Positions 7,212 through 53,444 of a stretch of DNA of 64,000 bases are shown here, piece after piece. Origin of the DNA: Acidimicrobiia bacterium (GTDB lineage Bacteria; Actinomycetota; Acidimicrobiia; IMCC26256; DASPTH01); assembly GCA_040880805.1 (NCBI GenBank), contig JBBDHW010000054.1:1-64000 (forward strand), in the 5' to 3' direction. The notes under the pieces were generated by a model. It had not been told where the DNA came from and searched no databases. It saw only the letters and a program-made list of their open reading frames with translations. Each line of letters begins with the position of its first letter. Positions within the stretch are counted from its first letter, which is position 1. A program made the position numbers and the translations under genes.

Positions 7212-7640
7212 TCAGTCGGCGGCGTCGATCGGATTGGCGACGTGCAAGCCGCGACGACCGGCGGCGCCGCACAGATCCGAGTCCGCGCTGGTCAGCAGAT
7301 CTGCACCGAGCTGCAGCGCCGCGGCGAGGTGGATCGCGTCGTACCCGCGGAGACCCTCCTGCTCCGCGAGATCCCCGGCCGCGTCCACGAGTTCTGCTGT
7401 GATTTCCACAATCGTGAACTGCTGCCACAGGCCCGCGAGCTCGGTTGTCGTGCGTCGCACTTGCGCGCGAGAGAGTCGCCCTCCGCGATCGGCGGCCGCC
7501 AGCGCGGCGCGCGCCTCGACGTGCAAGACGCGGGCAGCGGCAACGACGTCAGCGCTGTCCCAGATGACGGCGGCGCTCGCTGACCCCGGTTCTTCGATCA
7601 GCAACTTCAGCAGCGTCGAGGTATCGACGTACGTGATCAC
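7212..7640 (-). CDS. vapC: PIN-domain toxin, VapC-like ribonuclease
   Basis: A 142-residue PIN-domain protein. The acidic residues of the metal site are visible in order: YVDTST near the N terminus, HVEARAAL, GYDAIHLA and TSADSDL. VapC proteins cleave tRNA or rRNA when freed from their antitoxin. GTG at 7640 overlaps the stop of the upstream antitoxin gene by four bases (GTGA), the usual coupling in such pairs. The length is normal and all acidic positions are kept, so the toxin is probably functional. Confidence 0.88.
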   Translation of the reverse strand: MITYVDTSTLLKLLIEEPGSASAAVIWDSADVVAAARVLHVEARAALAAADRGGRLSRAQVRRTTTELAGLWQQFTIVEITAELVDAAGDLAEQEGLRGYDAIHLAAALQLGADLLTSADSDLCGAAGRRGLHVANPIDAAD

Positions 7641-31646: not shown

Positions 31647-32834
31647 TCAGGCGACCTTCATGAGACGGGCGAGGTTTCCGCCCATGACCAGTTCCTGGTC
31701 CTCGATGGGCATCGTGGCGATGTCATCCGAGAAGCCGAGCGGGTCACGGAGACCCTCGGGATGCGGGAAGTCGGAGCCGAACATGCTGTTGGCACTGCCG
31801 AGCATCGAGATGAGCTCGACCGGGTTCGCGTCACGGAAGATGTGGATCCAGAAGTTGCGCCGCAGGACCTCGAGCGGATCCTCGTCGAACAGGACGGGCG
31901 CGCGCTCGTACGCGTCGGCGAACTGGCGAAGCATCGGGCGGGTCCATTCGTTGAAGTGCTCGACGATCACGACCTTCAGGCGCGGGAAGCGAGTGAGCAT
32001 GCCGTGCCCGATCATCGATGCGATGAGATCGCTCGTCTGCGAGCGTGGCGTCGCCAACGCGCGAACCGCCGACGCGCCGAAAGGCCTCTCGAAGTAGCCG
32101 CCGGCCTCGGGCGTGCCGTCGAGCTCGGCGAGGTCGACGGGGTAGCGCCGGTTCACGGTGTTGTGCAGCCCTACGACGATGTCGTGCTCCTGCATGGCCT
32201 CCCAGAAGGGGTCGAACTCCGGCAGTGCGAACGAGCGCGGCCCCGTGGGCCCGAACACCGGGGCCGGCCGGATGTAGACGATCCTGGCTCCGCGCTCGAC
32301 CACCCACTCGAGCTCCTTGATCGCCCGATCGACGATCGCCATACCGATCGCCGGTGTGGGGAAGATCGTGTCCTCGTAGCCGAACGTCCAGTGCTCGTAC
32401 ATCCACTCGTTGAGCGCGTGCAGGACGGCGTGAGTCGCGAGCGGGTCTTCGGGCATCGCCTGCTCGATGACGCTGGCGAGCGTCGGCCACATCAGCGACC
32501 GGGTGATGCCGAACTCCTGCATCAGCTTGTACCGAGGCTCGACATCGAAGAAGGCGTCGAGGCCGGCGATCGAGCGGCGGTTGAGTGGGTCGTCCTGTTG
32601 GCCACCGGGGGGCGCTACCCGCGCAAAGGTCGGATTCGGAATGGCGCGGCTGATCCGGTCCTTCACGGCGAGCTTCGTGCGACGGTCGTACTCGACGTAC
32701 TTGATGATGCCTTCGTATTCGGGCGGGATGAACTTCGTGAAGGCGTCGGGGTTCTCGTACATGTGGTTGTCGGAGTCGAAGACCGGGTAGTCCAGGTTCC
32801 GGTCCCGTACGAAGAACAGCTCGTCATCGCTCAT
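31647..32834 (-). CDS. PF04909-type amidohydrolase
   Basis: About 395 residues. The N-terminal metal motif is DSDNH (D22, H24), a central GLHNTVNRRYP follows, and GSDFPHPEGL carries the late Asp. ATG at 32834 is chosen because a strong GAGGAGGG lies just upstream; GTG 32858 in the same frame would give a GTGA overlap with the preceding gene. It is the second gene of a two-gene unit with another amidohydrolase. The two are clearly different in sequence, so they may act in sequence or as a heteromer. Confidence 0.88.
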   Translation of the reverse strand: MSDDELFFVRDRNLDYPVFDSDNHMYENPDAFTKFIPPEYEGIIKYVEYDRRTKLAVKDRISRAIPNPTFARVAPPGGQQDDPLNRRSIAGLDAFFDVEPRYKLMQEFGITRSLMWPTLASVIEQAMPEDPLATHAVLHALNEWMYEHWTFGYEDTIFPTPAIGMAIVDRAIKELEWVVERGARIVYIRPAPVFGPTGPRSFALPEFDPFWEAMQEHDIVVGLHNTVNRRYPVDLAELDGTPEAGGYFERPFGASAVRALATPRSQTSDLIASMIGHGMLTRFPRLKVVIVEHFNEWTRPMLRQFADAYERAPVLFDEDPLEVLRRNFWIHIFRDANPVELISMLGSANSMFGSDFPHPEGLRDPLGFSDDIATMPIEDQELVMGGNLARLMKVA

Positions 32835-32854
32835 CGCATCCCTCCTCGCCGTCG

Positions 32855-34021
32855 TCACGCTGGTACCGCTGCCGCCTCGCCGAGTTCGAAGGCGACGCGG
32901 TCGAACTGCGGCGCCAGGGCCGCGAGGTCGAGGTGGTACACCTCAGCGGCGTTCTCGTAGAGCACCTTCCGGGCGTCCGCCTCGGTCACGGTCGGCATCG
33001 CGGCGAGCAGCCGCGCGTTCTCGATCACTCGAGGGAAGATGGACTCCGGGTGCGGGTAATCGACGCCGAACATCGCGTTGTCGCTGTGGATCCGGAATCG
33101 CTCCCCGGCACCGCGGGCGCCGCTCAGGTCACCGGCCGACAGCTGCGCGGGGTGAAACGGCGAGATGCCCGCGTAGCAGTTCGACTCCCAGTACTCGCTG
33201 GGCAGCCGAGAGTACGGCTTGGCCTGGCGGAGCGACTCCGCGAAGTCCGTCCAGTCGTCGGCCATGCGCTCTCGCCCGTCCAGCATCTCGATCATCGGCG
33301 CGATCCACCACGCCTCGGTCTCGATGAAGGCGATCTTCAGATCCGGGAAGCGATCGAACACGCCACCCAGGATGAGCTGCCACAGCGATCGGCCCGAGAA
33401 GAACGAGTGCTCGGCGGCGAGCACCATGAACGCGGCGAAGATCTGGGGCTGGTAGTCCGGTGCGCCGGTGCCGCCGTGCTGGCTGAGCGGCAGGCAGACG
33501 TCCTGGCACGCAGCCCAGATCGGGTCGAGCGCGGGATCGAAGAAAAACTTCGAGCCCGGGTAGAGGGGAGGCATCAGGATGCCGACGAGGCCCTGCTCCT
33601 TGGCCCAACGGATGTCCTTCACGGCCTGGTCGACGTCGTCGAAGGACACCAGCGCCTGCCCGTGCAACCGGTCCGGCGCCTCGGAGCAGAAGTCGATCAC
33701 CCAGCGATTGAACGCCATGTTGGCCTGACGGGTCTGCTCCGGGTCGGGCGCGAAATCGACGCGCCCGGCCGCGAACGGCGCACCATTCGTGAAGAGGATC
33801 TCGGCCGCCACTCCCTGGGTCTCGAGGTCGGCGAGCCGCCGCTTGGGGTTCCACTGCGCGTCCTCGCCGAACTCGGGTCGAACGAACCCGTCGGGCATGC
33901 CCTCGAAGCTCTTGACCCAGTCGTCGAACGCGTCGCGCCACTTCGGGTCGATGTAGTCGCGGTAGCCCTCACGCGGCGCCTTGACATGGCCGTCGACCGA
34001 GATAATCGCCACTCGCCCCAT
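32855..34021 (-). CDS. PF04909-type amidohydrolase
   Basis: About 388 residues from ATG 34021, which follows GAGGGG. It has SVDGH (D10, H12) near the N terminus, LPLSQHGGTGAPDY in the centre and FGVDYPHPES near the C terminus. It resembles the gene at 12192 more than its own neighbour in the N-terminal region (both start with VAIISVDGH-like strands). An inverted repeat, CTGCC-N6-GGCAG, lies at 34111-34126 upstream and could be an operator. The substrate is unknown. Confidence 0.88.
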   Translation of the reverse strand: MGRVAIISVDGHVKAPREGYRDYIDPKWRDAFDDWVKSFEGMPDGFVRPEFGEDAQWNPKRRLADLETQGVAAEILFTNGAPFAAGRVDFAPDPEQTRQANMAFNRWVIDFCSEAPDRLHGQALVSFDDVDQAVKDIRWAKEQGLVGILMPPLYPGSKFFFDPALDPIWAACQDVCLPLSQHGGTGAPDYQPQIFAAFMVLAAEHSFFSGRSLWQLILGGVFDRFPDLKIAFIETEAWWIAPMIEMLDGRERMADDWTDFAESLRQAKPYSRLPSEYWESNCYAGISPFHPAQLSAGDLSGARGAGERFRIHSDNAMFGVDYPHPESIFPRVIENARLLAAMPTVTEADARKVLYENAAEVYHLDLAALAPQFDRVAFELGEAAAVPA

Positions 34022-34239
34022 CGCCCACCCCTCGACCATCGAACACGAACACGCAACCCCGGACAGGGGCAGTATGACGCCCGGCGGGCGCGGCGGCAAC
34101 AACAGGGCGCTGCCACAAGCGGCAGTGTCTGGGTGGCGAGCACTGACCGATCGACGCGAGAGTGACGTTCGAGGGCTTCGGTCCGTCCGGCAAGTCGGGT
34201 CGTCCTGCCTGCCCCGCGCGCGTCACACCAGGTTCATGA

Positions 34240-38161: not shown

Positions 38162-39403
38162 ATGTTCGAGCAGCATCTCGACTATCCGGTATTCGACGCC
38201 GACAACCACCTCTTCGACAGCGTGATGCTGTGGCGCGGATACGCCGAGTCGAAGTACTCGGAGCTCTTCGAGGACGACATCTGGCTGTCGGACCGCGAGC
38301 GGTTCCTGTCGAGTGCGATCGGTCGCCGAGCGAGCCGGTTCGGAGAAGGCAACGAGGTGCAGGCCCTGGAGGAGTCGGCCGTCTTCCGCCCGGGCGCCAG
38401 CCTCAACAAGCTGAACCCGTACAAGAACGCCAACTCGCCGGAAGAGCGTGAGGCGATCATCAAGGAGTTTCAGGCGCTCGCGCCCGGCTTCCAGAACCGC
38501 GACCGCCGCCTCGAGGTCATGGACATCCAGGGCATCGAGGGGGCGATCATGTTCCCGCAGGCCGACGCGCTCGTGATCCACAGCGCGTTCTCGGAGAGCG
38601 CGGAGAGGAGCATGGCCGCGGTGCGTGCGTACAACCGCTGGGTCGACGCGGAGTGGGGCTTCAGCTACCAGCACCGCATCTTCGTGCCTGCCGCGATCTC
38701 ACTCATGGACGTGGACCTCGCCCTCGCCGAGGTCGACTGGGCACTCGAGCACGGCGCGCGCGGGTTCCTACTGCCGCCGGGGCCGCTGCACGGCCGATCG
38801 CCGGCCGACCCGATGTACGACCCATTCTGGGCACGCCTGAACGAGGCGAAGGTCGGGGCGATGATCCACCTCAACTACACCGACTACGCGCAGCAGGGCG
38901 CGCGGTTCAGCGAGGACCCCGACTCCCACTTCATCGACGGCAACAAGTCGTTCACCGCGTTCCAGTGGTTCTCGTACTGGGGAGACCGCCCGGTCATGGA
39001 GACCACAGCCGCGCTGATCTTCCACGGGCTCTTCGAGCGCTTCCCTGACGTGCGGATCGCGCTCTCGGAGCAGGGCACGGTGTGGCTCCCCTATACGCTG
39101 CGCAAGATGGACCACGCGTTCATGATGGGGCGCAAGGGAACGTTCGACGCGATCAAGTCTCGGCCGAGCGATACGTTCCGCAAGCACTTCCTCGTCGCGC
39201 CGTACCCCGAGGAGATCGTCTCGCGGCCGATGGAGGTCGTCGGGGACACATGCCTGACGTTCGGATCCGACTTCCCGCACGGTGAGGGACTTGCGGACCC
39301 CGCCGAGTATGCGAACGCAATCCTCGGCGACCTCACAGAGGAGCAGCGCCGCAAGATCATGCGCGACAACCTCGCGAACTTCCTCTTGCCCGCGGGTGCG
39401 TGA
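38162..39403 (+). CDS. PF04909-type amidohydrolase
   Basis: A 413-residue amidohydrolase with DADNH (D14, H16) at the N terminus, GAMIHLNYTDYA in the centre, FERFPDVRIALSEQGTVWLP, and FGSDFPHGEG near the C terminus. ATG 38162 follows GGAGGGAG. It diverges from the LLM/SDR unit, and a palindrome shared with other promoters here lies just upstream. Residues 100-160 (LAPGFQNRDRRLEVMDIQGI) are typical of the subgroup found in actinobacterial aromatic and terpenoid catabolic clusters. The substrate is unknown. Confidence 0.9.
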   Translation: MFEQHLDYPVFDADNHLFDSVMLWRGYAESKYSELFEDDIWLSDRERFLSSAIGRRASRFGEGNEVQALEESAVFRPGASLNKLNPYKNANSPEEREAIIKEFQALAPGFQNRDRRLEVMDIQGIEGAIMFPQADALVIHSAFSESAERSMAAVRAYNRWVDAEWGFSYQHRIFVPAAISLMDVDLALAEVDWALEHGARGFLLPPGPLHGRSPADPMYDPFWARLNEAKVGAMIHLNYTDYAQQGARFSEDPDSHFIDGNKSFTAFQWFSYWGDRPVMETTAALIFHGLFERFPDVRIALSEQGTVWLPYTLRKMDHAFMMGRKGTFDAIKSRPSDTFRKHFLVAPYPEEIVSRPMEVVGDTCLTFGSDFPHGEGLADPAEYANAILGDLTEEQRRKIMRDNLANFLLPAGA

Positions 39404-39454: not shown

Positions 39455-39988
39455 TTACGGGTTTTCGTCGAGGCCTCCGGTGTCGAGGCCGCCGGACAAC
39501 GACGGCCGCTCGACGAAGAAGTTGGTCGACCAGGAGTCCTCACCGACACGTCGCCCCGCGCCGTCGACGATCACGATCGTCGCAGCATGGAGCCCGTACA
39601 GGTCGTTCACGGGAAACGGACCGTTGAACGGCAGCACCGGAACGGTCACGTTGTGTCCTCGCGTCACGAAGATGAAGTGCGCCGCCAGGTACAACTCATC
39701 GGGACAGCCCGGGGTTGCCTTGCACGTGTCATCGGCCAAGCTCTCCAACGACTCGCCAGGTGCCATGGGCTGCTGGTCGACGAAGACCGCGAAGCGCTGC
39801 CGCGGCGCCAACGGCCGCGCGTCCCAGGTGATGCGCGCCGGCGCCTCCGTCGTGGTCAGGTCGCGTGGGCGCACGACTTGCACGCGATCGGATTGCTTCA
39901 CCGCCAGCCCCTGGGTGCTGCACCCGAACGCGACGATGCCGACTGCGAGCGCGGGCAGGAGGACCCGTCGTCCGCGCCCGCGTCTCAT
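39455..39988 (-). CDS. Small predicted lipoprotein at the end of the ABC importer operon
   Basis: A 177-residue protein with signal sequence (RRGRGRRVLLPALAVGIVAF) and lipobox FGCS. The mature part is a single beta-rich domain (ARITWDARPLAPRQRFAVFV) with a Cys pair in DDTCKATPGCPDE. ATG 39988 overlaps the LivHMG stop (ATGA), so it is probably made with the transporter and may be an envelope accessory. I know no family for it. Confidence 0.68.
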   Translation of the reverse strand: MRRGRGRRVLLPALAVGIVAFGCSTQGLAVKQSDRVQVVRPRDLTTTEAPARITWDARPLAPRQRFAVFVDQQPMAPGESLESLADDTCKATPGCPDELYLAAHFIFVTRGHNVTVPVLPFNGPFPVNDLYGLHAATIVIVDGAGRRVGEDSWSTNFFVERPSLSGGLDTGGLDENP

Positions 39989-42801
39989 GTGGCGGCCCGC
40001 ATCGTCGAGCGGTCGATCGCGCTGGTGTCCGCGCCCAGATAGGACTCGATGACGCGCGGGTTGGAGCGGATCTCTGCTGCATCGCCGACCGCGATCACCT
40101 GACCCGACTCCATGGCCACGACGCGGTCGCACAGCCCGAGGACGAGCGGGATGTCGTGCTCGATGAGGACGATGGTCAGATCGAGCTGTTCCTTCAAGGG
40201 CGTCAGGATCTCGCCGAGCATCTCCGTCTCGCGCTGGGCCATGCCCGACGACGGCTCGTCCAGCAACAGCAACTGCGGATCAAGAGTGATCATGCACGTG
40301 AGGTCGACCACGCGCCGCGTCCCCGTCGAAAGCTCCGCGACCGGACGGTCACGCCACCGGTCGAGTCCCATCATCGCGGCCAGCTCCCGCGCGCGTTGCC
40401 GCTTCCCTCGCCGCGTTGTGTTGAAGCCGGCGAACGACCGGACGAAGCGCGTCGGGTCCTCGCGCTCGAGCGCGAGCTCGATGCAGTCGAGCACCGAAAG
40501 TGTCGGGAACAGCGCGGCATCCTGGAACGAGCGGATGAGCCCGAGCTGGGCACGGGACGACGGGCTCAGGCCGGTGATGTCGCGTCCGAGGAATTCGACG
40601 GTGCCGCTGTTCGCGCGCGTGAAGCCACTGATCAGCTCGAAGAGCGTGGTCTTCCCGGCGCCGTTGGGACCGATCAGGCCGAGTGTCTCACCAGCGTGGA
40701 CCTCGAGGTCGACACCGCTCACCGCGACGACCCCGCCGTACGCCTTGGTGACCTCTCGGGTGCTGAGGATCACGTCGCCAGGCGCGTACGAACGAGACGG
40801 CGTAGTCGGGAGTGCGAGCTGCACCTCGATGTCGGGGGGCTGGGTGGAGCGCCTGTCCTCGTCCCACTCGACCGCGGGATCGAGCCCGTGACGACGCGCG
40901 ATCGCGTCGGCGATCCGCTTCCGGACGTTGCCGACTCCGACCGCGAAGCCGCCCGGGTATTGCACGATGATGATCAACCACCCGGCCGCGGTCGCGAGGA
41001 GCTGGAGCGAGTCCAGCGGCGCGATGTGGAAGATGTTGGGGATCTCGGGGATCCCCACGATGAACAACGAGCCCATCAACGGGCCGATGAGCAACCCGAG
41101 GCCGCCGAGCACCGCCACGGCGGCTGCCTCGATGCTGCGCTGCACTCCAAATGCTTCCGAGGTGAGCAGGCTGATGCCACCTCCGTAGACAGCGCCGCCG
41201 AGTCCCGCGAGGAACCCGGCGACGCCGAACGCCTGGAGCTTGACCGACGTCGGGTTGACGCCGAACGCGCGGGCGGCGTCCTCGTTGTCGCGGACTGCGC
41301 GCATGCGGAGGCCGAGGCCTCCCGTCCAGACATTGCGAGCGAAGAACACCGCGACGAGGAGGACGACGAGGCCGAGCAAGTAGTACGACTTCGCCGTTCG
41401 GATCGTGTAGCCGGCAATGGTGCGGTCACCGTGTGACTTGCCCGCGCCCAACAGCCACGGTTGCTGCAACGCCCACGTCGTGCAGACGACTGCGAAGCCG
41501 AGCGTGGTCACCGCGAGCATCGGCCCCCGGATCCGGAGCGCGGGCAGTCCGATCAGCAGCGCCGCTCCCGCGGCGGCGACTCCCCCGGCGACGAAGCCGA
41601 GGACGAAGGTGCCGGTCGCGTCCGTGACGTAGTACGAGATCGCTCCGCCGATTCCCGCGAGCGCGAACTGCCCGAGTGAGAGTTGACCGCTGAGACCGGC
41701 GACGACTCCGACGGAGAGCCCGACAATGGTCATCACTTCGATCATCGTGAACGAGGTCGCACTCGAGTTACTGATGACGAGCGGCAACGCGAGCCCGGCC
41801 GCGAGCAGGACCGTGAACACGACCCAGCGGAGGTTCCGGATCCAGAAGATGTCCCGGTAGCTGTCGGGCAACGGCGCCCACTCGCGGATCGCCGTCCAGG
41901 TGCCTTTCGCGTCGCGCCGGTCGTACCGGGCGCGCTGGATCAGCAACGTGCCAAGGATGATGACGAAGAGCACCGCCTCCACGAGCGAACCGTTGGGATA
42001 GTTCCAGAGCAGGAGGCCCTCGATCACGCCCACGCCGACCCCCGCGATCATCGCGACCCAGAGGTTGGTCATGCGGGCGATCACCGCGGCGGTCAGGGCG
42101 CGGAGCAGGAGCCCCGGCCCGAGGAAGTCGCCGCTCGCGAACCCGCGCGTCGGCAGGATCAGGATCGCGGTGTAGGCGGCGACGACGCCCGAGAGCGCCC
42201 ACGCGAGCGACACCATGCCGCCCGCGTTCACCCCGACGAGCTCGGCCGCCTCCTGGTTGGTCGACGACGCGCGCATCGCGAGGCCGAACCATCCGCGCCG
42301 GAAGTAGTACACGAGCGCGGCCACGACGATCGGCGTGAAGATGAGCATCCCCGAATACGCCTGCGTCACGCGCAACGGGCCGACGTCGAAGTCGGGCATG
42401 CCCGGTGGCAGCGGGAATTGGGCGCCCACGCCCACACTCGAGTTGATGATCCCCGCGAGGATCAGGATCACCGATCCGAGCCCGAGCGTCGCGACGACTC
42501 CGACGACCGTCGGCGTGTTCCGCAGCCGTCGCATGACGCCCGCTTCGCATCCCGCGCCCAGCAGACCCGAGGCGATCAGCGCGACAGGCACTGCGATCCA
42601 GTAGTTGACGTTCCACTCGACCACAGCGACGCCCGCGATCGCGGCGCCGAACGCGCCGATCGCCCCCTGGGCGAAGTTGATGATGCGGCTGGCCCGGTAG
42701 ACGAGGACGAGGCCGACGGCGATCATGCCGTAGACCATCCCCGTGATGGCCCCGAGCAGGAGCGACGGGCCGGTCACCTCGAAGTGCGTGAACCAGTCCA
42801 T
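39985..42801 (-). CDS. Fused branched-chain-type ABC importer: LivH-LivM-LivG in one chain
   Basis: A 938-residue triple fusion. Residues 1-290 are a LivH-type permease (GMVYGMIAVGLVLVYRASRI, NFAQGAIGAFGA). Residues about 335-640 are a LivM-type permease (VVAGLSGQLSLGQFALAGIG, MRAVRDNEDAARAFGVNP). Residues about 676-925 are a LivG-type ATPase with Walker A GPNGAGKTT (about 711-719), signature LSTGTRR and Walker B LLLLDEPSSG. These are normally three proteins. ATG 42801 shares a base with the stop of the MFS-LivF gene. With that gene and the binding protein it would form a complete importer. Confidence 0.92.
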   Translation of the reverse strand: MDWFTHFEVTGPSLLLGAITGMVYGMIAVGLVLVYRASRIINFAQGAIGAFGAAIAGVAVVEWNVNYWIAVPVALIASGLLGAGCEAGVMRRLRNTPTVVGVVATLGLGSVILILAGIINSSVGVGAQFPLPPGMPDFDVGPLRVTQAYSGMLIFTPIVVAALVYYFRRGWFGLAMRASSTNQEAAELVGVNAGGMVSLAWALSGVVAAYTAILILPTRGFASGDFLGPGLLLRALTAAVIARMTNLWVAMIAGVGVGVIEGLLLWNYPNGSLVEAVLFVIILGTLLIQRARYDRRDAKGTWTAIREWAPLPDSYRDIFWIRNLRWVVFTVLLAAGLALPLVISNSSATSFTMIEVMTIVGLSVGVVAGLSGQLSLGQFALAGIGGAISYYVTDATGTFVLGFVAGGVAAAGAALLIGLPALRIRGPMLAVTTLGFAVVCTTWALQQPWLLGAGKSHGDRTIAGYTIRTAKSYYLLGLVVLLVAVFFARNVWTGGLGLRMRAVRDNEDAARAFGVNPTSVKLQAFGVAGFLAGLGGAVYGGGISLLTSEAFGVQRSIEAAAVAVLGGLGLLIGPLMGSLFIVGIPEIPNIFHIAPLDSLQLLATAAGWLIIIVQYPGGFAVGVGNVRKRIADAIARRHGLDPAVEWDEDRRSTQPPDIEVQLALPTTPSRSYAPGDVILSTREVTKAYGGVVAVSGVDLEVHAGETLGLIGPNGAGKTTLFELISGFTRANSGTVEFLGRDITGLSPSSRAQLGLIRSFQDAALFPTLSVLDCIELALEREDPTRFVRSFAGFNTTRRGKRQRARELAAMMGLDRWRDRPVAELSTGTRRVVDLTCMITLDPQLLLLDEPSSGMAQRETEMLGEILTPLKEQLDLTIVLIEHDIPLVLGLCDRVVAMESGQVIAVGDAAEIRSNPRVIESYLGADTSAIDRSTMRAAT

Positions 42802-45053
42802 CAACTCCCGCCGGCGTTCGACCCGTCCGCGGGCCCCGGGGCCATCGTCCCGATCCCCTTGGACGCACCCTCGAGGAACACCGACCGCAGGAGATCGGGT
42901 CGTGCGACGAGGTCACGGGCGTCGCCGTCGAAGCGCATCTGGCCGCGCTCCATGAAGTAGGCGTGATCGACGAGCGTGAGCGCGATGTTGACCGACTGCT
43001 CGACGACGACGACCGCGGTGCCGGTCGCGTTGATCCGCCTCACCATCTCGATGAGCTGACCGACGATGAGCGGCGCGAGACCGAGGGAGAGCTCGTCGAT
43101 CAGCAAGAGCCGAGGTTGGAGGATGAAGGCTCGCCCCAAGGCGAGCATCTGCTGTTCCCCGCCCGACAGCGTGTCGGCGCCCTGGTTCCGGCGCGCCGTG
43201 AGGGCCGGGAACGCGTCGAACGTCGCGTCGATGCCGCGCTCGACCGCCTTCGACGACCTCCGCAGCGTGAACGCGCACATGCGCAGGTTCTCGACGACCG
43301 ACATGCCCGGGAAGACCGATCGGCCTCCCGGCATCTGTGCGATCCCGTGACGGACGCGCCGAGCCGGATCGACGTAGGTGATGTCGGCACCCCGGAAGTG
43401 GACGGTTCCCCGCGTCGGCTTCCCGATGCCGGAGATCACCTTCAGCAACGTCGACTTCCCGGCGCCGTTCGTGCCGAGCAGGGCGACGATCTCGCCGTCG
43501 TCGACGGTGAAGTCGACGCCGAACAGCACCTGGAGCTTGCCGTAGCTGAAGTCGAGGTTGCGGACGCCGAGGAGCGGGAAGTGCTGCCCGCTCGAGACGC
43601 GTACGAGCAGTTCCTCGCGCTCCGTCTCCTTCTCGACCAGCCGCGCCACGTCACCAGCCATCTCGCGGCTCGAGACGCGCGTCGCGCCGGACACCCCGAG
43701 GTAGTTAAGCGCGAAGAACACCATGGCGGTCGTGATCCCGTAATGGTCTGACAGCTGCCCCGCGAGCACGCCACCGGCGAGTGCCGCCGACGCGATCAGC
43801 AGCCCGGCGATCGCAGCAGTATGGGAGCGGAGACGAGGATCCACCACCGAGAGCCACACGAGGTAGGCGACGGCGACGCTGAAGTAGAGCCCGAGATACG
43901 CGAGCGCGAGCGTCACGATCGTGACGACCTCGTTCGCCCAGAACGCCATGACAACGAGGCTCACTGCGCCCAGGAGCGCGAGGCGCGCAACAGCCGTGAG
44001 CAGCTTCGCGGGCGACGCCCGGAACCATGCGTCTCCCCGCGCCCGCAGGACGAACAACGGGATCATCCCGATCGTGCCGAGGAGCACGAAGAGCCACTGC
44101 CGGTCCGTGAACTCCCACTGGTAGCGCGCTACCACGAACTGCGATACGAACGCCTGCATCGGAACGGCGATCGTGCCGGCAAGCACGAATACGATCGGCA
44201 TCGACGCGCCGGACCGAGCCGCCAACGTGGCGCGCATCTGCTCGCCGAACTTGACCGCGACGTCGGCTTCGGAGAGCTCGGCGTGCTCGCTGCCACGTTC
44301 ACCGACGCGCTCACGAACGATGCTGCCGATGCGGTCGACGTCGTAAGTCCCGACACCGGGGTCGCGGATACCGAGGGACGCGAGCGCGGCGACGGTCGCG
44401 ACGCCGGCAAGGACCATCAGGCATCCACGCCACGTGAGGCCGAAGCGATCGAATCCCACCAAGATCGCTACGTTGGCGATCACGGTGCCCGCCGCCAACC
44501 CGAACACCAGAAGCGTGATGACGCGCGCACGGACGTCAGGCGGATACGCATCCATCACCAACGAGAACGCCGCGGTGAAGATGCAGCCGGCGCCGGCGGC
44601 CGTGATCGCCACTGCGGCGACGAGTCCGACTTCGTTGGTGGCGAACGACGCAAACCACATTCCTCCGGCGAGCGCGACGCTGCCGACGAGGAGCACTCGA
44701 CCGCGAATCACGTGGTGCGACATGACCCTTGCACCGACGAGCGCCGCGACCGCGAACGCGGCGACGAAGACCGGGATGATGAGCGAGTTCAGGAGCCCGG
44801 GGTACTCGTAGCCGAGCGGATCGAGGCCGAGCGTGTCCGCGATCGACGAGTCGAAACGCAACAGGAGGAACGTCAGGAACATCACCGGGACGATCACGAG
44901 CGTCGCCCGGATGACCGTCGCCGGCGTCGCACCCGCGCGCCGGATCCCATCGCGAAGCTTTGGCACCGCCTCGTTGCTGCCGAACCCGAGCGCGGCGAGG
45001 CTGCGCCCGGTCAGCTCGTGCGCTTCTTGTTCGATTAGTTCGATGCTGTCCAA
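42801..45053 (-). CDS. MFS-like membrane domain fused to a LivF-type ABC ATPase
   Basis: A 750-residue fusion. Residues about 45-480 form an MFS-like bundle: many helices, a GARVMSHHVIRGRVLL loop and MDAYPPDVRARVITL. From about 492 comes a LivF ATPase: LDFSYGKLQVLFGVDF, Walker A GTNGAGKST (about 527), LSGGEQQMLALGR and LLLIDELSLGLAP. The natural partner of LivG is thus tied to a different transporter fold. TTG 45053 is the only start. It lies between the binding-protein gene (17 bases upstream) and LivHMG, so all four genes form one operon. Confidence 0.9.
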   Translation of the reverse strand: MDSIELIEQEAHELTGRSLAALGFGSNEAVPKLRDGIRRAGATPATVIRATLVIVPVMFLTFLLLRFDSSIADTLGLDPLGYEYPGLLNSLIIPVFVAAFAVAALVGARVMSHHVIRGRVLLVGSVALAGGMWFASFATNEVGLVAAVAITAAGAGCIFTAAFSLVMDAYPPDVRARVITLLVFGLAAGTVIANVAILVGFDRFGLTWRGCLMVLAGVATVAALASLGIRDPGVGTYDVDRIGSIVRERVGERGSEHAELSEADVAVKFGEQMRATLAARSGASMPIVFVLAGTIAVPMQAFVSQFVVARYQWEFTDRQWLFVLLGTIGMIPLFVLRARGDAWFRASPAKLLTAVARLALLGAVSLVVMAFWANEVVTIVTLALAYLGLYFSVAVAYLVWLSVVDPRLRSHTAAIAGLLIASAALAGGVLAGQLSDHYGITTAMVFFALNYLGVSGATRVSSREMAGDVARLVEKETEREELLVRVSSGQHFPLLGVRNLDFSYGKLQVLFGVDFTVDDGEIVALLGTNGAGKSTLLKVISGIGKPTRGTVHFRGADITYVDPARRVRHGIAQMPGGRSVFPGMSVVENLRMCAFTLRRSSKAVERGIDATFDAFPALTARRNQGADTLSGGEQQMLALGRAFILQPRLLLIDELSLGLAPLIVGQLIEMVRRINATGTAVVVVEQSVNIALTLVDHAYFMERGQMRFDGDARDLVARPDLLRSVFLEGASKGIGTMAPGPADGSNAGGS

Positions 45054-45069: not shown

Positions 45070-46464
45070 TCACGTTCCGTCGAGCGGAACCGGCTTCGTC
45101 CCCGGGATCTTTACGAAGGTCTTGGTGGCAGGGTCGTACTGCAACATCTGGACCTCGTCGATGTTCCCGCCGTTCACCTTCGCGCCGAACTTAAGGTCGC
45201 CGTTGTACGTGGTCGTCGCCTTGAACTTCGTGCCCTGCGCGTCGATGCCCTTGCGAAGGGTCGCCGGCTTGACGTCCTTCGCCTTGCCGAGGCTCGCCTG
45301 CAACAGGTTGAGGAAGTCGCAGTACCCCGACACGCCGGTCAACGTCGTGGTCGACGGCGCCGTCCAGGTTGCGCACTCGGTGATCGCCGGGTTCGCCGGC
45401 AGCGCCTGCTGCGCCTGGAGCGGGAGGTCCGTGATCTGCCACGAGACCGCGATCGCCTTCGTCTTCATCGCCTCGGCGCCGAGCTGTGCCTTGAGCGCGA
45501 GCGCATCCGACGTGTTGAGGCCATACGCAGGATAGAAGCCCTGGCTATTGGCGGACGTGAGGAACGCGACGGTGGTCGCACCACCCGGAGTAAAGATGAC
45601 CACGTTCACGCCATCGTTCTTGAACTTCAAGATCGCCGCGTTCATCGTCACCGTGGTGTTCGACAGATCGCTCGCGCTCGCGGTCTGGTGGTACGAAGCG
45701 ACCTCGTACGGGATCTTGAGCTTCTTCAGGGCGGGACCGTAGGCCTTGTTCGCGACGTAGTCGCCCTGCCCGGTGCCGTCGTCCGCGGCCATGATCCCGA
45801 CCTTGGCGTCCTTCGGGAACAGACCCGCCTTGTTCCACAACGTGACCAGCTGGTTGAAGCGGCAGGACGCAACGCCGTTCACGTAGTAGAGGTACGGCGC
45901 GCCCTTCTTCAGGTCGTCACAGGTGGGCTGGTACTTCCCACCGGAGACGAAGAACGGCAGCTTGGCCTTCGTGAAGCACTCGACGCCCACGTGGTTCTCG
46001 TAGGACCCCGCTGAGAACACGGCGAACACCTTGACGTCCTGCGTGAAGGCCGTGCACTCCTGCTGTGACTGCTGGCCCCAGTCGGGAGTCGACGCGGGAT
46101 AGCGGTACGTGACGAGATTCACGTCGCATCCCGCGAGCCCACCCGCGGCGTTGAGCTGTGTGACGCCCGCCTTGAGGCCGTCGACGATCGCCTGGTCAGC
46201 CGGCACGTTCGAGGTGTCCGCGCCGATGGCGTTCTGCGCGACCGACGCGGCGTTGCTGAAGTACGACACCCCGAGATTCACCTTGCCCGAGGGATCCGCG
46301 CACTTCGTCGCCGCCGTGGACGAACTGCCGTCTGCCGCCGTTGCGACCGACTGCCAGACGAACACGACCGCGAGCGCGGTCGCTGCGACCAGCAGCCCTT
46401 TCGTCACTCGATGAACGCGCCGCGCGGGGCGCTGCGAACGAACGACCGACGCTTGCACCGACAT
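45070..46464 (-). CDS. ABC transporter substrate-binding protein (LivK-like)
   Basis: A 464-residue type I periplasmic binding protein. A membrane or signal segment (GLLVAATALAVVFVWQSVA) spans about residues 23-42. The mature part begins KVNLGVSYFSNAAS, with two lobes recognisable at VGIMAADDGTGQGDY and VNVVIFTPGGATTVAFL. Unlike amino-acid binders it is long and Thr/Ala-rich. ATG 46464 follows a G-rich ribosome site. It is the first gene of the importer operon, behind a promoter flanked by two palindromes. Confidence 0.9.
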   Translation of the reverse strand: MSVQASVVRSQRPARRVHRVTKGLLVAATALAVVFVWQSVATAADGSSSTAATKCADPSGKVNLGVSYFSNAASVAQNAIGADTSNVPADQAIVDGLKAGVTQLNAAGGLAGCDVNLVTYRYPASTPDWGQQSQQECTAFTQDVKVFAVFSAGSYENHVGVECFTKAKLPFFVSGGKYQPTCDDLKKGAPYLYYVNGVASCRFNQLVTLWNKAGLFPKDAKVGIMAADDGTGQGDYVANKAYGPALKKLKIPYEVASYHQTASASDLSNTTVTMNAAILKFKNDGVNVVIFTPGGATTVAFLTSANSQGFYPAYGLNTSDALALKAQLGAEAMKTKAIAVSWQITDLPLQAQQALPANPAITECATWTAPSTTTLTGVSGYCDFLNLLQASLGKAKDVKPATLRKGIDAQGTKFKATTTYNGDLKFGAKVNGGNIDEVQMLQYDPATKTFVKIPGTKPVPLDGT

Positions 46465-46610: not shown

Positions 46611-47726
46611 TCAGCACTTCTTCGGCCAGTTGTAGATGCGACGCGCGTTGCCGTTCGTCATGAGGTCGACCTCGTCGTCGGGCACCTCGTGCATCATGCG
46701 CTTCATGACGTCCTGCGAGTGCGGCCACGGCGTCTCGACGTGTGGGAAGTCGCTCTCCCACATGATGCGGGCCACGCCGATGTGGTGACGTAGCTCGATG
46801 CCGATCTGGTCGTCGACGAACGTGCCGAGGATGTTGCGCTTGAAGATGTCGCTCGGAAGCAGGTCGTCGAGGCGCGACCAGTGCCGATGCCGCTCCCACA
46901 TCCGGTCGCAGCGCTCGAGCTGTGCGGGGATCCACCCGAGTCCGCCCTCGGAGAAGCAGAACTGCAGCTTCGGGTAGTCGCGCAGCGTCGGGCTCTCGAT
47001 CAGGTTCACCATGCCGATCGCCGCGGTGACCTGGGCGAGCATGATCGAGACGTGGAACTTCGACCCTGACGGGAACGGGATGTTGCCCGCCGTGCCGATG
47101 TGGCAGTTCACGACCATGCCGGTCTCGGAGAGCGCCTCCCACAGCGGGTTCCACTCACCGTTCCAGAGGTTCCCGAGCCCGAGGCCGCCCGGGTCCTCCG
47201 GGAACGTGATGCAGCGCGCCCCCTTGACCGCGGTGCGTCGCACCTCGTCGGCGCAGAGCTGCACATCCCACAGCGGCATCACCATCATCGGGATGTAGAG
47301 GTCCGGCGCCGCAGAGCACCACCCCTCGAAGACCCAGTCGTTGTAGGCCCGGCAGAGGAGCAGCGCGAGATCCTTGTCTTGGAACATCATCAGACCGCTG
47401 CCCGAGAAGCCGAGCAGCGAGGGAAAGCAGATGCTGCCGACCACACCGTCGACCGCGAGATCCTTGGCCCGCTGCGTCGGGTTGTAACAGGCCTCGATCA
47501 TCTCGGCGTAGCTCACCGGATCGAGGTCCCACTGTTCCTGGGGGCGACCCGCGACCGCGTTGAGCCCCATCGTCGGCTGCTGCATGCCGTTCACAATCCA
47601 TGCTTCGCCGTTGTCGGTCGCCACGACGTGCGGGGCGTCGTCCTGGTACTTCGCCGGCAGGCGGTCCGTCCAGACGTTGGGCGGCTCGATGATGTGGTCG
47701 TCGACGCTGATCAGCTCGTACCGCAT
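46611..47726 (-). CDS. PF04909-type amidohydrolase
   Basis: A 371-residue amidohydrolase with SVDDHIIEPP (D9, H11), a central MVVNCHIGTAGN, FCFSEGGLGWIP and a late ESDFPHVETPWP. This matches the actinobacterial subgroup whose members start RYELISVDDHIIEP. ATG 47726 follows AGGAG. A palindrome-like site at 47763 lies 37 bases upstream, and the TetR gene is next to it. A role in the catabolic pathway controlled by that regulator is likely; the substrate is unknown. Confidence 0.9.
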   Translation of the reverse strand: MRYELISVDDHIIEPPNVWTDRLPAKYQDDAPHVVATDNGEAWIVNGMQQPTMGLNAVAGRPQEQWDLDPVSYAEMIEACYNPTQRAKDLAVDGVVGSICFPSLLGFSGSGLMMFQDKDLALLLCRAYNDWVFEGWCSAAPDLYIPMMVMPLWDVQLCADEVRRTAVKGARCITFPEDPGGLGLGNLWNGEWNPLWEALSETGMVVNCHIGTAGNIPFPSGSKFHVSIMLAQVTAAIGMVNLIESPTLRDYPKLQFCFSEGGLGWIPAQLERCDRMWERHRHWSRLDDLLPSDIFKRNILGTFVDDQIGIELRHHIGVARIMWESDFPHVETPWPHSQDVMKRMMHEVPDDEVDLMTNGNARRIYNWPKKC

Positions 47727-49948: not shown

Positions 49949-51124
49949 ATGCGTGACTACGAGATCGTGTCGACGGACTCACACCTCGAGGTGTCGCCCG
50001 ACCAGTGGCGACCCTACGTGGATCCCGAGTTCCGGGAGTACGTGCCGAAGGTCGTGGAGCTGCCGGGCGGCGGCGACGCGTGGCTCATGCCCGGAAAGAG
50101 CCAGCCGGTACCACTCGGGTTGAACTTCTCCGCAGGACGCGGCTGGGAGAACCTCAAGGTTTCCGGCCTCTCTTATTCCGAAGAGCTTGTGGGAGCGGGC
50201 GACGCGAAGCAGCGGCTCGCAGAGATGGACCAGGACGGCGTCGACGCCGAGATCCTGTTCCCCGCCGTCTCGGGTCAGCGCACACTCGACATCGCAGCGA
50301 TCCCTCCCGAGGCCTACATCGCGGTCGCGCGTGGGTACAACGACTGGCTCTCGCAGGAGTACACCGTCGAAGACGTCGACCGACTCCTCGGGCTCGCGAT
50401 CCTGCCGTGCGCCACGATCGATGACTCGATCGCGGAGCTCGAGCGTGTGGCGACGATGCCCGGCGTCCGCGGCGTCGTGCTGCACCAGTGGCCCAACGGA
50501 TCGCCCGTGCCGAAGCCCGAGGAAGACGACCGGTTCTGGGCTCGCGCGATCGAGCTCGAGGTGCCGCTCACCGCGCACGTCGGCTTCGGTGGCGGCGCGA
50601 TGGCGGAGGAACAGGCGCGCGCCGAAGCGGCGGCCGGTGGCGCCACGCTCATCAACTTCGCGCCGATGACCATGATGCTGTCGAAGACCGTGACGCGCGG
50701 CGGTCTCGTCGTCCAGTTCATCCAGTACGGCACGCTCGACCGATTCCCCGACCTGCAGGTGTTCTTCGCCGAGACCCAGATCGGCTGGATCCCGGAGTTC
50801 AAGGAGGACGCCGACGAGAACTGGCGCCGGCACAAGTACTGGAGCGGCGCCGACCGGTGGGCACACGAGCCGAGCTGGTACATGGACCACCACTTCCACT
50901 GGGGCTTCCAGGTGGACCGCTTTGGCTTGAAGGTGCGCCACGACATCGGGGTCGATCGCATCCAGTGGTCCACCGACTTCCCACACGTGCAGTGCGACTG
51001 GCCGGAGTCGCGCCGGATCGTCGCCGAACAGTTCGCCGACATCCCCGACGACGAGACGCGCATGATCGTCTGCGACAACGCGGTGCAGTACTTCCACCTC
51101 GACCGCGAGCCGGCCTGGAGCTGA
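49949..51124 (+). CDS. PF04909-type amidohydrolase
   Basis: A 391-residue amidohydrolase. STDSHLEV (D10, H12) opens the protein, LTAHVGFGGGAMAEEQARAE lies in the centre, and WSTDFPHVQCDWP near the C terminus has the late Asp. ATG 49949 follows GAGAGGAG. It sits between two CoA-transferase genes (4 bases before the next start), so its substrate is probably an acid made available as a CoA thioester, or a product of one. Confidence 0.9.
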   Translation: MRDYEIVSTDSHLEVSPDQWRPYVDPEFREYVPKVVELPGGGDAWLMPGKSQPVPLGLNFSAGRGWENLKVSGLSYSEELVGAGDAKQRLAEMDQDGVDAEILFPAVSGQRTLDIAAIPPEAYIAVARGYNDWLSQEYTVEDVDRLLGLAILPCATIDDSIAELERVATMPGVRGVVLHQWPNGSPVPKPEEDDRFWARAIELEVPLTAHVGFGGGAMAEEQARAEAAAGGATLINFAPMTMMLSKTVTRGGLVVQFIQYGTLDRFPDLQVFFAETQIGWIPEFKEDADENWRRHKYWSGADRWAHEPSWYMDHHFHWGFQVDRFGLKVRHDIGVDRIQWSTDFPHVQCDWPESRRIVAEQFADIPDDETRMIVCDNAVQYFHLDREPAWS

Positions 51125-51128
51125 TCGG

Positions 51129-53444
51129 ATGGCCGGGCCCATCGAAGGACTGCGCGTCGTCGACTGCTCACGCGGCACGGCGGGCCCGCGCGCGACGGGC
51201 ATCCTCGCCGACTACGGCGCCGACGTCGTCTGGGTCGAGCCACCGGGCGGAGATCCGTGCCGCGACCAAGTGCCGGCATCGGCGGCGGTGTTCAACCGCG
51301 GGAAGCGCAGCATCGAGCTCGACGTGACGGATCCGGACGCGCGCGCACAGTTGCTCGCTTTGATCGACCGTGCCGAGGTGTTCGTCGAGAGTTGGCGGCC
51401 CGGCGTCGCCCAGCAACTCGGCCTCGACTACGAGACGCTGCACGAACGCAACCCCGCTCTCGTCTACGTGTCGATCTCGGGCTTCGGCGAAGGCGATGGT
51501 GACGACGAGCTCCCGGGATACGAACCAATCGTCCAGGCCGTGCTCGGCAGCATGGCCGAGCAGGTCGGCCACCGCGAAGCGCCGATCTTCCTCGGGTTCC
51601 CGTTCGCGTCGGCCGGCGCGGCGTCGCTTGCGGTCATCGGCGCGCTCGCCGCGCTGCGTCGCGCGCGCGAAGACGGTCACGGCCGGCACGTCTCGACGTC
51701 ATTGTTCGACGGCGCACTCGCCTACCACTCGATGCTGTGGGGCGAGACCGACGCGTCGGTCGAGGCGTTGACGAACGCGCCACTCGTCATGACCGCGCCC
51801 CCCGCGATCCGGCTCCTCACGCGCTCTTTCGAATGCGCCGACGGTGAGTACCTCGGCATCCACACCGGCGCGGTCGGCGCGTTCGGGCGGGCGATGAAGG
51901 TGCTCGGCCTCGATGACCGCATCCCGCCGAGCGAGGACGGCATGGACATCGGCGTGCCGCTCACTCCCGAGCAGGTGCCGATCCTCTACAACGAGACCGT
52001 CGACATCTTCAAGACGCGACCGCGAGCGGAGTGGGTGGAGCGGTTCCTCGAGGCCGACGTGTGCGCGGTCGAGCACCTCCGGCCGACCGAGGTGTACGAC
52101 ACGCCACAGGCGCGGCACAACGAGATGGTCGTCACCGTCAACGACCCGGTGCTCGGCCCGGTCGAGCAGGTCGCGCCGGCCGCCAAGTTCACCGCGACCC
52201 CCGGTGACGTACGAGGCGCCGCACCCAGTGTCGGTGAGCACACCGTCGAGGTTCTTGGGACGATGGCTGGGTGGCCGGACCCGGCGGACAAGCCGCCCGC
52301 GGGCGCGATCGACACCAGGCCGCTCCTCGAAGGCTTGCGGATCCTCGACCTTGGCGCGTACTACGCCGGCCCTTACTCATCGCGGCTCCTTGCCGATCTC
52401 GGTGCCGAGGTGCTGAAGGTGGAGCCGCTTCTCGGCGACCAGCTCCGCGGGATCGAACGGCCCTTCTTCTCCGCGCAGGCGGGGAAGCGCGCAATGGCGG
52501 CCAACCTCAAAGACCCCGCGCTCACTGGAGTGGCTCAGGAACTACTACGGAGCGCCGATGTCGTGCACCACAACCTGCGCCCCGGTGCAGCAGAGCGCCT
52601 CGGCCTCGACTACGCATCGGTCAGCGAAGTGAACGGCGGCATCATCTACCTCCACGCGCCCGGGTGGGGATCCACCGGTCCGTTCACAATGCGACAGAGC
52701 TTCGCACCGATGCAGTCGGGTTATGTCGGCGTCACCTACGAGATTGCGGGTCGCTTCAACCCACCGATGCCGCCGACCGCAAACGAGGATCCTGGAAACG
52801 GGCTGTTGGGCGCGATCGCAATTCTCCTCGCGTTATTGCACCGCGATCGCACCGGTGACGGACAAGCGGTCGAGAACGCGCAGCTGAACGCGACCATGAC
52901 GCACATGGCCCACGTCGTCCGAACGGTCGACGGCGATGTGATCGGCGCGGATCAGCTGGATCCGCTGCAGTTCGGTTTCGGGCCGTTCGAACGGTTATAC
53001 GAGACCGCCGACGGCTGGGTCTGCGTCGTGGCGTACACCGATGCGGATCGCGAAGCGCTGTTGAAGATCCTCGGCGTCGACCGGGTTGCAAGCGACGATC
53101 ACCAGGCCGACCTCATCGCCGCCGCGTTCGCAGAGCGAGAAACCGCGGTCGCCGTCGACGAAGTTGGCAACACCGGAGTTGCAATCGTCGAGCCGGCAGG
53201 TCGATCGATGCACCGCCTCATGAACGACTCCGAACAGCGACGCATCGGTCGCGTCGCCGAAGTCGCGCATCCCGCGAAAGGGAACGTGCGGGAGCTCCAC
53301 GTATTGCTCCGGGTCAGCGACGCAGAGCAAGTCCCGCATCGGCTTGCACCGGAACTTGGCGAGCACACCGACGAGGTGCTCCGTGAACTGGGATGCGACG
53401 CCGACGAGATCGCGTCGCTGCGCGCGAGCGGGGCCGTGCGGTGA
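51129..53444 (+). CDS. Tandem class III CoA-transferase (two CaiB domains in one chain)
   Basis: A 771-residue fusion of two CaiB-type units. The first begins GPIEGLRVVDCSRGTAGPRA, the second (about residue 398) GLRILDLGAYYAGPYSS. The usual catalytic Asp is Glu132 in the first unit (GYEPIVQA), and no acidic residue is evident in the second (QSFAPMQSGYVG). CaiB enzymes are interlaced dimers, so a fused pair could be a pseudo-dimer. ATG 51129 comes four bases after the amidohydrolase stop, and the stop overlaps the next gene (GTGA). Confidence 0.88.
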   Translation: MAGPIEGLRVVDCSRGTAGPRATGILADYGADVVWVEPPGGDPCRDQVPASAAVFNRGKRSIELDVTDPDARAQLLALIDRAEVFVESWRPGVAQQLGLDYETLHERNPALVYVSISGFGEGDGDDELPGYEPIVQAVLGSMAEQVGHREAPIFLGFPFASAGAASLAVIGALAALRRAREDGHGRHVSTSLFDGALAYHSMLWGETDASVEALTNAPLVMTAPPAIRLLTRSFECADGEYLGIHTGAVGAFGRAMKVLGLDDRIPPSEDGMDIGVPLTPEQVPILYNETVDIFKTRPRAEWVERFLEADVCAVEHLRPTEVYDTPQARHNEMVVTVNDPVLGPVEQVAPAAKFTATPGDVRGAAPSVGEHTVEVLGTMAGWPDPADKPPAGAIDTRPLLEGLRILDLGAYYAGPYSSRLLADLGAEVLKVEPLLGDQLRGIERPFFSAQAGKRAMAANLKDPALTGVAQELLRSADVVHHNLRPGAAERLGLDYASVSEVNGGIIYLHAPGWGSTGPFTMRQSFAPMQSGYVGVTYEIAGRFNPPMPPTANEDPGNGLLGAIAILLALLHRDRTGDGQAVENAQLNATMTHMAHVVRTVDGDVIGADQLDPLQFGFGPFERLYETADGWVCVVAYTDADREALLKILGVDRVASDDHQADLIAAAFAERETAVAVDEVGNTGVAIVEPAGRSMHRLMNDSEQRRIGRVAEVAHPAKGNVRELHVLLRVSDAEQVPHRLAPELGEHTDEVLRELGCDADEIASLRASGAVR

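Follow-up and report, generated by a model that had tools for sequence, protein, structure and literature searches.

A Spinster-like MFS domain joined to the LivF ATPase of a LIV-type importer in Acidimicrobiia and other Actinomycetota

ABC and MFS proteins, the two great superfamilies of transporters, are regarded as separate machines with different sources of power. In the window (the whole 64,000-nucleotide stretch of DNA analysed here), one open reading frame with a TTG start nevertheless encodes both an MFS domain and a LivF-type ATPase, which raises the question of what an MFS domain does on the ATPase subunit of an ABC importer. Judged from sequence, the composite importer is a real, lineage-wide kind and neither a one-off nor an assembly artefact, since the same MFS-LivF join recurs in about 130 distinct related proteins across Actinomycetota. 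As a conserved covalent link that gives each ABC importer exactly one MFS, the fusion would demonstrate that members of both superfamilies can form one complex. We found no published description of an MFS-LivF-type fusion in the open-access literature; automated databases may well list the pair of domains.

The preliminary description had read residues 45-480 as a secondary-transporter bundle and everything from 492 on as LivF, and these limits proved correct to within a few residues. Pfam places an MFS_1 match at residues 83-416 (47.1 bits against a cut-off of 33.4) and an ABC_tran match, likewise above its cut-off, at residues 512-654 (100.3 bits). An AlphaFold2 model of the full chain, computed from an alignment with 34 relatives, reached a pLDDT of 79 and predicts twelve membrane helices within residues 43-462, the last of which extends without a break across residues 440-487 in the direction of the ATPase (first strand from 495); the linker motif LVVEEL.EE is conserved among relatives. 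Folded separately (pLDDT 76), the MFS half gave moderate but consistent Foldseek matches to MFS structures, with human Spns1 having the top TM-score among the matches listed (0.75/0.79; TMq 0.75) and DgoT the best E-value, and a profile of the MFS halves of the family independently points to bacterial Spinster, SPNS1/2 and DgoT as the nearest solved sequences. The N-terminal helices thus take the predicted 12-helix MFS fold, and the case that they do not fold as MFS did not come true; nor does the feared frame break between the halves appear, either here or in the approximately 130 relatives. For the ATPase half, the top models were LivF (197.1 bits, residues 496-728) and UrtE, and its score lies below the NCBIfam LivF equivalog cut-off of 441 bits, so that it is LivF-like rather than a curated LivF equivalog. 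Among solved structures, this half is closest to the Thermotoga maritima ABC ATPase 1ji0, and the best 50 Foldseek matches of the full model were all ABC proteins. The reading of this half as carrying all motifs is right for Walker A, LSGGE, Walker B and the catalytic Glu, but the H-loop position holds Gln (E685-Q686-S687) instead of His.

The neighbouring genes encode the rest of an importer (Table 1). Immediately downstream, with a 4-nt overlap, lies a gene for a LivH-LivM-LivG fusion in which BPD_transp_2 matches in two stretches (176.8 bits) corresponding to the LivH and LivM permease domains, followed by the LivG part with BCA_ABC_TP_C at residues 679-925. A substrate-binding protein related to the one upstream of the fusion is found close to it at 39 of 58 loci. 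Farther upstream on the same strand, Pfam identifies an amidohydrolase and a TetR regulator; a CoA-transferase gene still farther away is divergent. Fused clusters contain no second LivF, the unfused LivF proteins of the genome being located in other clusters. With LivHMG and the binding protein adjoining and the fused LivF as the only one, the cluster supplies all the components of one LIV-type importer. Like the known LIV/HAAT importer (LivJ/K-LivH-LivM-LivG-LivF), it has LivH and LivM permease domains, LivG and LivF ATPases and a type I periplasmic binding protein (Peripla_BP_6); it differs in the N-terminal 12-helix MFS on LivF and in having LivH, LivM and LivG on one chain. The suggestion of an importer reorganised together with LivHMG is supported by the domains and by the same pairing at other copies.

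Table 1. Positions of the importer genes and of the parts of the fusion protein in the window, with MFS-less chains from other loci (locus given before the colon).
Feature	Position	Strand	Basis
MFS-LivF fusion protein, 750 aa	42801..45053	-	open frame, translation, Pfam, LivF HMM, AlphaFold2
MFS domain, residues 43-462, 12 predicted membrane helices, without motif A Asp and TM1 acids	43668..44927	-	Pfam MFS_1, AlphaFold2, Foldseek, motif analysis
Cytoplasmic linker, residues 463-494, reached by helix 440-487 extending TM12 (predicted)	43572..43667	-	AlphaFold2 model
LivF-type ATPase domain, residues 495-728	42870..43571	-	Pfam, LivF HMM, structure matches
Walker A GTNGAGKS, residues 527-534	43452..43475	-	sequence; all but T528 invariant in 35 relatives
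ABC signature LSGGE, residues 629-633	43155..43169	-	sequence and alignment
Walker B Asp and catalytic Glu, residues 653-654	43092..43097	-	alignment
LivH-LivM-LivG fusion, 939 aa, both ABC permease domains and partner ATPase	39985..42804	-	Pfam 2x BPD_transp_2, ABC_tran, BCA_ABC_TP_C; own HMMs
Substrate-binding protein, Peripla_BP_6, 464 aa, 16 nt upstream of the fusion	45070..46464	-	Pfam, 41.2 bits
MFS-less LivH-LivM-LivF-LivG chain	L015:5411-9367	-
MFS-less LivH-LivM-LivF-LivG chain	L016:4468-8667	-
MFS-less LivH-LivM-LivF-LivG chain	L049:3045-6989	+

The source genome (G000; 3.49 Mb, 95% complete) carries five copies of the fusion, the other four on contigs C48 (twice), C33 and C27, and each adjoins a LivHMG fusion. 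Canonical unfused LivF proteins are present as well, so that the fusion represents a choice of architecture and not a general trait of LivF in this genome. That a mis-assembly or frameshift has joined two genes is a reading with practically no probability left: the fifth copy (L011, on C48) does have an assembly gap exactly at its MFS/LivF junction, near position 7600, and its two parts were rejected as separate genes because the break is this gap, but the explanation is already refuted by the four gap-free copies in the same genome and the roughly 130 elsewhere, including one in a cultured isolate, Yinghuangia seranimata (L110). This isolate and many Acidimicrobiia MAGs were found by a search with the MFS alignment of three close relatives; the MFS half of the window copy alone, used as query in a scan of the genome contigs, gave no match, probably because this copy is too divergent, and an alignment of 11 MFS rows contained no sufficiently conserved stretch. 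A phylum-wide MFS search returned 47 matches, and those inspected lay on fused chains save for the gapped copy of the source genome and four relatives without LivF, which were rejected as fusions and are free-standing MFS proteins. Of the 58 genomes of the order, 41 matched the fusion profile strongly, as did 19 of 397 sampled Actinomycetota genomes, in the class of the window and in others. The fusion had been called unusual, which is true in general, but within this lineage it is the normal state.

Gene layouts, read with our own HMMs for MFS, LivF, LivH, LivM and LivG, fall into two dominant types: MFS-LivF with LivHMG (type A, as in the window) and LivHM with MFS-LivF-LivG (type B). One locus has all five domains in a single 1728-aa frame (LivH-LivM-MFS-LivF-LivG; L038:1374-6560, plus strand), according to translation and Pfam. 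Other stop-to-stop frames of 1700-1900 aa were rejected as single chains, most being LivHM overlapping MFS-LivF-LivG in another frame; only L038 was genuine. Single LivH-LivM-LivF-LivG chains of 1314-1399 aa that have no MFS occur as well (L015/L006, L016/L007 and L049). In a LivF tree of 60 fused rows, the gapped copy, three of these MFS-less proteins and seven canonical LivFs, all but the canonical sequences form one group (support 100/99), within which types A and B are largely apart (97/86 and 93/83); the proteins lacking MFS nest among type B. Their position is most simply explained by losses, and their presence in the same clade (L006, L007, L049) means that the MFS module is dispensable in some lineages. 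A single ancient fusion event would be the simplest reading of this tree, which does not prove one origin.

How closely the MFS is tied to the importer can be approached through the ATPase pair. Across 36 type A clusters, the H-loop His is present in every LivG (36/36), while LivF has Gln at that position in 35/36; the signature reads SGG in LivF and STG in LivG without exception (36/36 each). By the usual rule for ABC heterodimers, the residue pattern leaves one consensus site, formed by the nucleotide side of LivG (Walker A/B, His) and the signature of LivF (LSGGE/Q), and because this single site needs the LivF signature, the chain that bears the MFS is a necessary half of ATP hydrolysis. 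Pairwise identities of the MFS correlate with those of LivH (0.956) and LivM (0.954), compared with 0.82 for its own LivF, and partial correlations on log distances were 0.38 for LivH, 0.34 for LivM and -0.13 for LivF; the correlations with LivH and LivM are suggestive only, as the pairs share ancestry. Relative to LivG, the slope of divergence was 1.56 for the MFS versus 0.93 and 0.97 for LivH and LivM.

The MFS half of the window copy has lost the residues associated with coupled transport. At TM1a, the equivalent of DgoT D46, motif A (G...DR..R, between TM2 and TM3) and the equivalent of E133, it has V, L, H and A, so that the Asp of motif A is replaced by His and the two acids of proton-coupled DgoT/Spinster proteins by Leu and Ala. 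In DgoT, protonation of D46 is needed for the transport cycle, and roles have been assigned to both D46 and E133 (PMC11649914). No member of the window clade has the motif A Asp (0/12), whereas it is kept by all other type A (85/85) and type B (32/32) proteins and by all MFS that share no frame with LivF (5/5; the four free-standing proteins and, by our count, the gapped copy). Only the LivF half was used to define membership of this clade, so its match with the loss of the Asp is not circular. Among the 113 others with LivF, the Asp is retained in all except L038, the only other loss; the MFS of L038 has also lost the TM1 acid, and this loss is separate from that of the window clade. At the D46 equivalent, 11 of the 12 window-clade members are neutral, and an acid (D/E) occurs in 57/85 other type A, 31/32 type B and 5/5 of those not in frame with LivF. 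While the ATPase half of the window copy is 60-69% identical to its nearest relatives, the MFS half reaches only 24-26%. Positions such as D168, R175, W208-R209, P232, G235, R318, R409 and D468 are still invariant across the window copy and 34 relatives, which indicates that the domain remains constrained and is not decaying. The term secondary transporter used in the preliminary description thus applies to ancestry and not to a demonstrated function, since the coupling residues are absent in the window copy. MFS proteins without the motif A Asp or the TM1 acid may still be uniporters.

Our preferred explanation, held with about even confidence, is that the protein is the LivF subunit of a LIV-type (HAAT) importer with a Spinster-like MFS attached, which in the window clade would be a non-transporting module. 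The working complex would consist of the binding protein, LivH-LivM-LivG and MFS-LivF, with one MFS domain per importer, and the TM12 helix running to the ATPase could relay movement between the halves. In most relatives the MFS, with its transporter features, may itself move substrate or product. In the window clade, the fold is kept but proton-coupling and gating residues are lost, and the MFS would most likely dock LivF against LivHM and/or sense substrate and regulate the ATPase. A different reading, doubtful in our estimation, is an obligate composite in which MFS and ABC parts make up one machine, in one genome a single polypeptide; in most lineages both parts would run together on ATP and an ion gradient, for example handing over or exchanging substrate, with the window-clade MFS as a pseudo-transporter gating the importer. 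It is also possible, though rather unlikely, that in every copy, the window one included, the MFS half works as an active secondary transporter in parallel to the ABC importer, for example in product export or exchange of a counter-substrate. The motif A Asp in 117/117 type B and other type A proteins, a TM1 acid that is usually kept and the fact that the nearest solved relatives (Spinster, SPNS2, DgoT) are working transporters would fit such a role, but not the replacements at four key positions and the low MFS identity of the window copy.

The MFS might instead be a passenger, an old and harmless fusion that was tolerated and is now drifting, as it diverges faster than LivH or LivM and is missing from the LivHMFG relatives nested in the clade. 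We consider this improbable, since some 130 chains contain no broken frame, the scattered invariant positions persist even in the window copy, and the domain has been kept across several classes and two gene layouts. Very improbable is an ATP-powered MFS transporter independent of LivHM, in which the ATPase would drive the MFS directly: the single chain and the continuous TM12 helix of the AlphaFold2 model might hint at it, but LivH, LivM and LivG are present in every fused cluster visible in full, LivF without the H-loop His needs LivG, and to our knowledge MFS proteins have no counterpart of the coupling helix. Relatives with a complete, a disabled or a lost MFS offer a natural experiment, in which the role of the domain is testable by swapping or deleting it. 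Instead of a plain branched-chain amino acid, the importer probably takes up a hydrophobic catabolic compound; the recurring neighbours of the fusion (cytochrome P450, SDR, luciferase-like monooxygenase, amidohydrolase) and those of the window clade (enoyl-CoA hydratase, sulfotransferase) point weakly in this direction.

Several known systems resemble parts of this architecture. The Spinster-type MFS proteins (bacterial Spinster 6e8j, SPNS1, SPNS2) and DgoT, the best sequence matches of solved structure for the fusion MFS family, stand alone, and the window copy differs from them by the loss of the motif A Asp and the TM1 acids. SV2A and SV2B, MFS-fold proteins among both the sequence and the fold matches of the fusion MFS, are eukaryotic and have no ATPase; they are usually treated as MFS proteins without a firmly established transport role. 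In the sensor kinase-MFS family (TC 2.A.1.34, listed in PMC3924187), an MFS is likewise fused to a functional domain on the cytoplasmic side, but the partner is a sensor kinase and not a transport ATPase.

A few further genes of the window deserve mention. An open reading frame at 39455-40132 (minus strand) overlaps the end of LivHMG and has no Pfam match; with its lipoprotein-like stretch VGIVAFGCS, it is possibly a small secreted operon protein with a later start. Five genes of one sequence cluster are located within 20 kb, at 31647-32858 (-), 32855-34102 (-), 38162-39403 (+), 46611-47726 (-) and 49949-51124 (+), and Pfam assigns those at 38162 and 46611 to Amidohydro_2. A 771-aa protein encoded at 51129-53444 (+) has two stretches matching CoA-transferase family III models, apparently as tandem domains.
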